DNA from: Phytohabitans flavus | GTDB taxonomy: Bacteria; Actinomycetota; Actinomycetes; Mycobacteriales; Micromonosporaceae | Direction: 5' to 3' | DNA: 64,000 nucleotides | Assembly (NCBI RefSeq): GCF_011764545.1 | Contig: NZ_AP022870.1 | Span: forward strand, 7,880,001-7,944,000 | Notes under the pieces: model-generated | Told to the model about the DNA's origin: nothing | What the model saw: only the letters and a program-made list of their open reading frames with translations | Database searches by the model: none | Translations under genes and position numbers: made by a program | Shown: positions 34,177 through 53,875 of the stretch, one piece after another | Layout of the letters: each line of letters begins with the position of its first letter | Numbering within the stretch: position 1 is the stretch's first letter

Positions 34177-34224
34177 GCGGAGTTCTCACAGGATGGGCCC
34201 GGGCCGTACGGTCCGGGCCCATCT

Positions 34225-34345
34225 GACCTGGGGTACCGTCGCAGGCGATCGGCCGCAGCGAATCCGGTGCCCAAACCGGAGCTGTCCCGCAACTGTGATG
34301 CCGTACCGGTGCAAACCGGACGGACTAGCCAGGTCGCCTGCGGAC
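34225..34345 (+). ncRNA. Cobalamin (B12) riboswitch
   Basis: The conserved core is present in order: GAATCCGGTG with the paired CCGGAGCTGTCCCGCAACTG segment, TGATGCCG, and the B12 box AGCCAGGTCGCCTGC at 34327-34341. It sits about 100 bp before an ABC transporter whose first gene is a substrate-binding lipoprotein, so that transporter is most probably specific for cobalamin. Binding of adenosylcobalamin normally shuts off expression by hiding the ribosome site or by termination. The ends given are approximate. Confidence 0.92.
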
Positions 34346-34444
34346 GGTCGCGAACAAGCGCTCTCGAGGAAGGGCGCCTCGCGGGCGGAGCGGCGACCCC
34401 TCTCTTGTCGGCGAAGCACCAGATCCTCGACCGACAGGAGGACC

Positions 34445-51372: not shown

Positions 51373-51896
51373 CATCCCCGTTGATCCGCGCCCAGCAGGC
51401 CGCCGCCGAACCCGACGAAGCGCTGGCCACGCTCTTCCAGACGCAGTACGCGGGAATGCTCCGCCTCGCCGTCCTGCTCGGCGCGGACGACGCGGAGGAC
51501 ATCGTGGCTGAGGCGTTCTACCAGCTCTACCGGCGCTGGAAGAAGCTGCGCGGCGCGGACGCGGCGGTACCGTACCTGCGGTCCGTGGTCTGCAACCTCA
51601 CCCGGATGCGGCTGCGACACCTACAGGTGGTCCGCAAGCACTCCACCCCAGAGACGGCCCAGCCGCCAGGCATCTCGGCCGAGGCGGAGGCGCTGCTCCA
51701 CGACGACCAGCGGGCGCTGGTGGCGGCGCTCAAGGAACTGCCCGCCCGGCAGCGGGAAGCACTCGTCCTGCGACACTGGCTGGGCCTGCGCGAGGCGGAA
51801 ATCGCCGAGGCGATGGGCATCTCCGCCGGCGCGGTGAAGTCACACACCTCGCGCGGGATGGCCGCCCTCACGCGGGTGCTGGAGGAACGCCGATGA
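51369..51896 (+). CDS. ECF-type RNA polymerase sigma factor
   Basis: A 175-residue sigma factor. Region 2 (about 20-85) shows TLFQTQYAGMLRLAVLL and DAEDIVAEAFYQLYRRW, and region 4 (about 115-165) shows LKELPARQREALVLRH with the helix-turn-helix LREAEIAEAMGISAGAVKSH. It resembles the actinobacterial SigE-type ECF group. It is translationally coupled to the symporter upstream and to a small membrane protein downstream, which could be its anti-sigma factor. Confidence 0.9.
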   Translation: MTSPLIRAQQAAAEPDEALATLFQTQYAGMLRLAVLLGADDAEDIVAEAFYQLYRRWKKLRGADAAVPYLRSVVCNLTRMRLRHLQVVRKHSTPETAQPPGISAEAEALLHDDQRALVAALKELPARQREALVLRHWLGLREAEIAEAMGISAGAVKSHTSRGMAALTRVLEERR

Positions 51897-52174
51897 CCAG
51901 GAGCACAGAGGAGCGGCTGCGGGAGACGCTGGACGCGCTCGCCGCAGGTATCGAGGCGGCGCCACCCGCGTACAAGAAGGCGCGCGCGGAATGGCGGCGG
52001 CGGGAGCGCCGGCGCCGGCTCGTGCTGGCGGTGCTGATCGCGATCGTCTTCGCGCTGGCCGACCTGATCGGCCTGTGGGCACTCAACCAGACCCGCGACC
52101 ACGACCCGATCATCTTCGACGACCGCTCCCGCATCCACCAGACCGACCCAGCGACAGGCGTCATCCCGCCGTAA
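51893..52174 (+). CDS. Small single-pass membrane protein, candidate anti-sigma factor
   Basis: A 93-residue protein with a charged N-terminal half (RSTEERLRETLDALAAGIEAAP, then RRRERRRR), one hydrophobic helix (about 43-63, LVLAVLIAIVFALADLIGLWAL) and a short extracellular tail. It has the bitopic layout of many small anti-sigma factors, with the cytosolic part in front of the helix, but no ZAS zinc motif. ATGA overlap with the ECF sigma gene supports a working pair. Confidence 0.72.
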   Translation: MTRSTEERLRETLDALAAGIEAAPPAYKKARAEWRRRERRRRLVLAVLIAIVFALADLIGLWALNQTRDHDPIIFDDRSRIHQTDPATGVIPP

Positions 52175-52330
52175 TCCGAAATAGACCAGACCTACAGATC
52201 CATCCAGGACGGTTGGGTCGGCTCATTGAGGGCCGGTCGGGTTTGGGGAAATCTGTTGCTGCCATAGCGGCCATAACTTTTCCCGAATGGTTTGCGGCGC
52301 CGAGTCTGCGCACTCCCGACGGAAACTCTG

Positions 52331-52378
52331 GATCTAGTCGACTTTCTGCCGTCAGGACGACAGTAAGTCGACTAGATC
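52331..52378. repeat. 48-bp near-perfect palindrome
   Basis: Outer arms GATCTAGTCGACTT (52331-52344) and AAGTCGACTAGATC (52365-52378) are perfectly complementary. After one T-T mismatch, the inner arms CTGCCGTC and GACGACAG pair at 7 of 8 positions around AG. That gives a stem of about 23 positions with two mismatches and a two-base loop. It is AT-richer than the genome and far longer than a usual terminator. Confidence 0.9.
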
Positions 52379-52463
52379 TCGCGGGCTTGGCCACAGCGGC
52401 ACCTTTGGCATGGCGCTTGGCTGGTTTGTCCGCATGTCGCAGGCTTCAAATCGTTGATCGAGG

Positions 52464-52514
52464 GGTTGGGTTGTGGAACCGCGGCCCCACCCTTCGCGGT
52501 CCACAATCCAAACC
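52464..52514. repeat. 51-bp imperfect inverted repeat
   Basis: Arms 52464-52483 and 52495-52514 pair over about 18 positions with one mismatch and two single-base bulges (core TTGTGGA / TCCACAA, CCGCG / CGCGG), leaving an 11-base loop. Confidence 0.75.
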
Positions 52515-52538
52515 TTGGACCGGCACGGCCGGCGGTGA

Positions 52539-52611
52539 GGCCAGCACGCACGATCGTGGCCGGCACGGTCGAAAACGGTGGGCGTGGCCTTGATCGCCGC
52601 GTGCTCTGGCC
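52539..52611. repeat. 73-bp imperfect inverted repeat
   Basis: GGCCAGCACGC (52539-52549) pairs with GCGTGCTCTGGCC (52599-52611) across a two-base bulge. Inner CGATC and GGCC segments extend the pairing with several mismatches. Confidence 0.55.
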
Positions 52612-52615
52612 GTCC

Positions 52616-52655
52616 GTGGCGATTCATTGCCCCTGGAGGGGTAATTATTCGCCAC
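52616..52655. repeat. 40-bp hairpin with TGGA loop
   Basis: GTGGCGA (52616-52622) pairs with TCGCCAC (52649-52655), and CCCC with GGGG around TGGA. 15 of 18 stem positions match and one more is a G-U type pair. The AT-rich middle (ATTC, AATTATT) is unusual here. Confidence 0.8.
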
Positions 52656-52750
52656 GATCGCAGCATGGCAGGACGCTACTCGCGTCGATCAAGGAAATCC
52701 GCGCCATACGCCATGATCGGCGTCTTTGCGCGAAGGTTTGCCGCCGTTAA

Positions 52751-52790
52751 CGCGGGGTCTGGGGCCTTCGGCCCTCGACTGGCCCCCGCG
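52751..52790. repeat. 40-bp inverted repeat
   Basis: CGCGGGG (52751-52757) pairs with CCCCGCG (52784-52790); inner GGGCC and GGCCC arms flank a TTC loop. It is GC-rich, unlike the other palindromes in this tract. Confidence 0.6.
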
Positions 52791-53059
52791 ACAATGATCG
52801 TGGTACTCAAGCGAAATAGCACGATCTGTCAGGTGCATCCGGCTGTAGCGCTGATTAAGGGAAGACGGACCCTGGGCGCGTGTTGCTGTCAGCGCGACGG
52901 GAAACGCAACCCAAAGGCCTTTCCGGGTCTGCCCGTGCCGCCAGGCCGTAGGTCGGCGGCGGGGTTGTGAATCGCGGAGGGTGAGGCTGCGGGAGCAGCG
53001 GTCCGGACCACCACGGACATCGCGGTAGCTCAAAATCTCTTTCTTGGGATCGCTCCTCC

Positions 53060-53111
53060 GGGCATGTCTCCCTGGTCGTCGACGTGCGACGGGCCCCAAG
53101 GAGACATGCCC
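53060..53111 (-). terminator. Long hairpin after the SDR gene
   Basis: GGGCATGTCTCC (53060-53071) and GGAGACATGCCC (53100-53111) pair perfectly, and three further pairs extend the stem past one mismatch, around a 20-base loop that can fold on itself. It lies 9 bp past the minus-strand SDR stop, so a terminator role is likely. Confidence 0.65.
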
Positions 53112-53120
53112 TGAGGGCGG

Positions 53121-53875
53121 TCAGCCCTGGACCGTGGGGACGACGATCAGCTCGGCCACGTTCACGCGCGCGGGGGCGGCGGTGGCGTAGGCGATCGCGT
53201 CCGCGATGTCCTCCGGGGGCAGCGGCGGCACGGCCTGAAGCATCCCGGCGAGCACCTCGCGCTGGGTGCTGTCGAGCATCCCGGAGCCGAGCTCGGTGCC
53301 GACGAAGCCCGGCTGGATGTTCTTGACCCGTACGCCGCGCGGGCCGAAGTCTGCCCGCAGCCCCGGGTGAGGTGCGCGACTGCGGCCTTGGTGGCTGTGT
53401 AGACGGCGTAGTTCGGGAAGACCTGGTGGCCGCCGACCGAGCCGACAAGCACGAGGTCTGCCGCCTTGCCGTCTGCGGCGGTCGCGAGCAGGTCGTCGAC
53501 GAACGCGCGGGCCGTGTAGAGCAGGCCGTTGAGGTTGGTACCGATCATCTGGTCCCACTCGATGGTCTGCGCCGACTCGAAGGGCGCGGCGAGCATGACG
53601 CCCGCGTTCGCCACGACCAGGTCGACCGGGCCCAGCGCGGAGCGGATCGTGGCCGCGGCCGCGTACACGGCGTCCTGGTCCGTGATGTCGACCGCGACCG
53701 GCACTGCGGCCGTCCCGATCTCGTCGGCCAGTCCCTTGAGACGGTCCTCGCGCCGCCCGAGGAGGGCGACCGACGCGCCGGCCGAGGCGAGGCGGCGGGC
53801 GGTGGCGGCGCCGATGCCGCTGGTGGCGCCGGTGACGACCGCGACGCGGCCGGAGAGTGTGTTGTTGTCAGTCAT
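53121..53875 (-). CDS. Short-chain dehydrogenase/reductase (frameshifted near 53361)
   Basis: About 251 residues once repaired. A classical SDR with the NAD(P) motif TGATSGIGAAT, the NAG motif (VVANAGVM), catalytic Ser in LVGSVGGHQ and YxxxK as YAVYTATK. One extra base in the cccc run at 53361-53364 restores LRADFGPRGVRVKNIQPGFVGTEL and an end at 53121. The substrate is unknown. It is divergent from an XRE regulator across 115 bp, a common pairing in actinobacteria in which the regulator represses the oxidoreductase. Confidence 0.87.

Follow-up and report, generated by a model that had tools for sequence, protein, structure and literature searches.

Palindromes between two convergent genes of Phytohabitans flavus probably belong to a mosaic insertion of genus-specific, non-coding mobile repeats

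The window analysed in this work is a stretch of 64,000 nucleotides from the 9.6-Mb chromosome of the soil bacterium Phytohabitans flavus (G000:C1:7880001-7944000), which was compared with five genomes of the same genus, that is, P. maris (G002), P. suffuscus (G005, NZ_AP022871.1), G001, G003, and G004. The comparison was anchored on the window region; a trial anchor near a PaaZ-like protein was dropped, and the window region was preferred for synteny because the region of that protein is accessory. The palindromes under study are located in a gap of 947 bp between two genes arranged tail to tail, whose stop codons fall at 52174 and 53121 (Table 1). The left gene of the pair is placed downstream of a sigma-factor-like gene, and all five relatives harbor orthologous DNA, with an identity of 80-93%. 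The right gene apparently lies in two frames in P. flavus; its aligned region comprises 755 bases in P. flavus and P. suffuscus and 756 in P. maris and G001, so that a frameshift common to the former two is possible. Elsewhere in the window, a cobalamin riboswitch match exceeding the Rfam gathering score was retrieved at 34206-34359 (+).

Table 1. Coordinates of the features discussed in the text (window positions, except for the last row).
Feature	Position	Strand	Remarks
Left gene of the convergent pair	51893..52174	+	ORF; small hypothetical protein; its stop is the left edge of the tract
Repeat module A	52211..52460	+	About 20 matches in own genome among the matches listed
Palindrome 1, hairpin of module A	52331..52378	.	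Arms of 23, 21/23 complementary; loop of 2
Palindrome 2, head-to-head fusion of two truncated C left ends	52463..52514	.	Arms of 17, 14/17; loop of 18
Repeat module B	52557..52789	+	About 20 own-genome matches among those listed, 70-83% identical
Palindrome inside module B	52615..52656	.	Arms of 20, 17/20; loop of 2
GC-rich imperfect palindrome ending module B	52751..52790	.	Bulged pairing in both folds
Intact copy of repeat C	52945..53035	+	Core 52973-53032; IS4-type target 10-mer 53000-53009
Terminator-like hairpin by the stop of the right gene	53055..53116	.	Arms 19/21; single copy
Right gene of the convergent pair	53121..53875	-	Short-chain dehydrogenase-like (named by eye); orthologous stop is the right edge of the tract
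IS4-family element inside C	P. flavus G000:C1, near 3297115-3298687		IS4-family domains

The earlier note had described five stacked palindromes within 52331-52790, one of them near-perfect and 48 bp long. The latter corresponds to palindrome 1, which together with the palindrome inside module B represents the strong part of the tract, palindrome 2 and the GC-rich one being weaker. Three of the five were recovered as ungapped inverted repeats and one (the GC-rich palindrome, to which the ungapped inverted-repeat scan gave no match) with bulges, while a separate fifth one, expected at about 52520-52600, was not recovered. The same scan retrieved two inverted repeats scoring at least 10 from 52331-52790, whereas 40 mononucleotide shuffles yielded none and 40 random 460-bp pieces of the window yielded 0.125 on average. 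Moreover, the tract has a fold z-score of -6.3 on the + strand and -5.8 on the - strand, and no shuffle matched its stability on either strand (0/100 each). The terminator-like hairpin by the stop of the right gene falls outside 52331-52790 and, in its own genome, matches only itself.

The tract is altogether absent from P. suffuscus and P. maris, where the corresponding stops are about 6-8 bp apart; at the same junction G001 harbors one element of about 170 bp belonging to the repeat that we call C, itself interrupted, and in G003 and G004 the sequence downstream of the left gene is different. Since it has no counterpart in P. suffuscus and P. maris, the tract is inserted DNA rather than a decayed gene. 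This comparison of relatives had been suggested beforehand, and the empty site in two sister species, together with the purely mechanical nature of the ORFs overlapping the tract (up to 200 aa), agrees with its description as gene-free. Further junctions likewise differ between species, some of them measuring only 0-48 bp where C is lacking.

Probing the genome of P. flavus with 52160-53120 retrieved at least 144 matches (40 of 478 candidates scored), which group mainly as module A, module B, and repeat C. The genome-wide search with the palindrome units, also suggested beforehand, thus returned interspersed repeats, and the tract is a mosaic of them. Module A is linked to insertions of an IS4-type element in C (described below): several of its copies run on into IS4-type ends beside a C half, the copy in the tract lacking its outer end and the adjoining C half. 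The arm of palindrome 1 gave 77 matches in the own genome and two weak ones in the five relatives; a second hairpin module, often accompanying C, gave 88 own-genome matches vs. seven weak ones in the relatives and, like palindrome 1, is almost limited to P. flavus. As for palindrome 2, 13 further matches were found in 800 kb of the own genome, at C copies. Module B, with 13 hits in 800 kb of the own genome (self included), contains the fourth and fifth palindromes of the earlier note, and the one at 52615..52656 is met again, in reverse, in several module B copies. The arrangement of the A and B modules varies from locus to locus.

The intact copy of C adjoins the range 52331-52790 and falls outside it. 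The core of this repeat is 60 bp long and non-palindromic. Searching for a 28-base half-core with at most one mismatch, we found at least 426 copies in P. flavus, 307 in P. suffuscus, 289 in G001, 82 in P. maris, 42 in G003, and five in G004; the reversed half-core, used as a control, gave no match. These hundreds of dispersed copies contradict a partition site, which had been among the possibilities considered for the tract. In the other genomes of the family, a single match (at most one mismatch) was retrieved from one genome out of 194; allowing two mismatches, the half-core has 455 copies in P. flavus and none in the phylum sample, which comprised 245 further genomes. In a contig scan, the matches listed (68 stretches) all came from three species, all of them assigned to Phytohabitans in the genome set used. 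According to these data, C appears to be restricted to the genus in the samples searched. In P. flavus its spread is uneven, with about 38 strong copies at 3.14-3.54 Mb, a region that looks accessory, and eight at 7.78-8.18 Mb.

The alignment of 221 copies anchored on the left half of the core revealed that the right-half columns are mostly 88-98% conserved, except for a number of positions, mostly two-letter transitions, and that the flanks reach about 35-50% per column, the edges of the core being sharp. With the anchor on the right half, a recognisable left half lay nearby in 57 of 84 own copies; some of the copies without one represent C split by insertions. The identity of the flanks among own-genome copies is 0.29-0.37; copies are not near-identical outside the core, and therefore no recent burst of C is visible. 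A peptide encoded by the core was considered and rejected, as the variable positions fit (by eye) no reading frame. A relative of C, repeat D (GGACCGTATGCTCCCGCGGGCACCG), has GCTCCCGCGG in common with it, counts 96 own-genome copies and 5-110 per relative, in all five, and often provides (by eye) the opposite end where an element has only one C.

The position of C relative to genes was tallied in four stretches of 400 kb from three genomes, using our own gene calls. C was present in 28 of 178 convergent junctions, 22 of 682 tandem ones, and three of 176 divergent ones. Gene pairs conserved between species are convergent in 102 of 653 cases overall, and in 16 of 19 cases when they contain C, these counts being not fully independent because each orthologous junction was counted once per genome. 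Close C pairs are mostly inverted, with the same end outward (45/55), and single copies are also common. A previous count had the outer end of C pointing toward the 3' end of a gene in 36 out of 46 copies; at tandem junctions this orientation rule is weak (16 vs. 11). A test of CTAG as target at stop codons found this motif in the vicinity of 25 out of 68 outer ends of C, many of them within one own-genome subtype. Where two or three species have C at a junction, its distances are different and its flanks unlike (by eye), which suggests repeated insertion. Convergent pairs lacking C have, on small numbers, a median gap of 5-8.5 bp in P. flavus, P. suffuscus, G001, and P. maris, and of 47.5 bp in G003.

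Within C we also found a 1.54-kb element with matches above cut-off to PF13006 (Nterm_IS4) and PF01609 (DDE_Tnp_1). Its versions include, besides that of 1.54 kb, two of about 3 kb and derivatives of 159-233 bp (about 168 bp in P. suffuscus, 220-233 bp in P. maris). The element has inverted ends, CAATGCCACTCA...TGAGTGGCATTG, and all these versions sit in C at GGTCYGGACC; identical 10-mers are present on both sides in nine of 15 places. Members of the IS4 family duplicate a target of about 10 bp. All 15 places fetched (15 of 104 matches) showed the insertion within C, one of them in a degraded C, a figure which is biased because the query contained the target. A search of contiguous stretches with a target-free query retrieved eight IS4-type ends, seven of which adjoin a C half, the remaining one adjoining a diverged C half (by eye). 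These data show that the IS4-family element and the short deletion derivatives of it have the core of C as their specific target and duplicate the 10-bp centre of this core; the IS4-type element is a separate element landing in C.

On the whole, we consider it probable that the tract is a mosaic insertion built from mobile repeats which are non-coding and specific to the genus, with the palindromes as its internal modules. Copies of C and D would settle just past the stops of genes, mainly where genes converge, either singly or in inverted pairs, with further repeat modules accumulating between them. The IS4-family element and its deletion derivatives enter the core of C, module A with palindrome 1 being tied to such insertions. 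C itself would be mobile, moved by some enzyme, the bias toward certain junctions may reflect tolerance and/or targeting, and the hairpins would have no function of their own. Some observations do not favor this reading: visual inspection of the junctions compared revealed no target duplication of C, the ends of C being without an exact definition; no transposase could be linked to C, neither an ORF common to its pairs nor a Y1 enzyme; copies diverge outside the core, whose conservation could also mean host selection; and the orientation rule at tandem junctions is weak.

Alternatively, C might be a host-selected site, that is, a 60-bp core bound by a genus-specific protein at tail-to-tail junctions, where the binder would act as a transcription roadblock or as a chromosome organiser, C having perhaps once been mobile and being now kept for the host. 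The conserved core with sharp edges and random-looking flanks and the strong preference for convergent junctions would agree with this possibility, which we nevertheless regard as unlikely: close species differ in occupancy, many convergent junctions are without C, copy number ranges from five to 426 within the genus, and recognition by a transposase accounts equally well for the conservation of the core, which is compatible with either role. A little more doubtful still is a scenario in which C would be a new kind of repeat, born in the genus, placed at tail-to-tail junctions by a recombinase, kept by a host protein (e.g., for stopping colliding transcription), and inhabited by the IS4-type element.

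A structured RNA, either a non-coding RNA or an array of terminators, had also been proposed as a product of the tract, which does fold better than its shuffles on both strands. The core of C, however, has no special stability when folded alone (z-scores of -0.1 and -1.0), RNAalifold gave no convincing consensus structure for C, and the top mutual-information pairs in the covariation analysis of the core are flank positions. Moreover, no Rfam family matched the tract at the gathering score (the best hit below threshold had 28.6 bits, with a cut-off of 95), and modules A and B are rearranged between loci. This makes such an RNA very improbable.

Even less credible is that C represents a classical REP/BIME repeat mobilised by a RAYT (Y1) transposase. 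The niche past gene ends, the inverted pairs, the mosaics, and the use as insertion target are all alike; nevertheless, the RAYT domain PF01797 was absent from all six genus genomes, with matches in five of 14 control genomes, and the core, with its 60 bp, is no palindrome. Finally, the remnant of an old decayed gene with unique, unconserved arms, for which only the mechanical ORFs might speak, can be practically dismissed, as the arms are repeated elsewhere and sister species have an empty site.

Excerpts from published accounts of REPs and BIMEs describe hundreds of intergenic copies that follow the ends of genes, with an excess where genes converge; adjacent units point in opposite directions, the segments between repeats in the mosaics are unlike, the distribution is genus- or species-specific, and the repeats are hot spots for insertion sequences (PMC3733652, PMC2817692, PMC1525189). 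The C family is similar in having more than 100 copies, extragenic siting, opposite orientation, and mosaics; it differs in its unit, since that of REPs is an imperfect palindrome of 20-40 bp, often with a GTAG tag. GTAG is present within the core of C, but not (by eye) at the foot of a hairpin. The C family is REP/BIME-like, but it is no classical REP; we did not file it as such because the defining palindrome and RAYT were both searched for and neither was found. The "REP/MITE cluster" of the earlier note therefore holds as far as interspersed repeats, empty sites, and REP/BIME-like behaviour are concerned, and fails on the Y1 transposase and on the non-palindromic core. REP-like repeats are as a rule associated with a single transposase class; a family of at least 426 copies with a REP-like niche, in a genus without sign of RAYT, implies that such families can apparently also arise through some other machinery. 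In addition, as close species differ in how many copies they carry and in which junctions these occupy, it becomes testable what mobilises the repeats and why they prefer tail-to-tail junctions. A literature survey, judged mainly from search results, gave no report of such repeats in Phytohabitans or Micromonosporaceae.

Compared to MITEs, the C elements are similarly short and non-coding, have inverted ends in paired copies, and show empty sites in relatives; they differ in that many copies consist of one C alone, with no target duplication seen by eye and no parent transposon found. Fourteen long inverted pairs were searched for an autonomous parent and have no ORF in common; the ORFs read in five of them are ordinary-looking genes or lack a common theme. 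We consequently rejected the idea that a C pair forms a single transposon equipped with a gene of its own.

The element inside C, on the other hand, shares with the IS4 family the DDE transposase, the inverted ends, and the 10-bp target repeat, and differs from it in its strong preference for a single repeat as target. Insertion sequences having REPs as targets are known, according to an excerpt of PMC1525189, and the case of the IS4-type element and C resembles them and offers a clear-cut example of a mobile element that has another repeat as its landing site.
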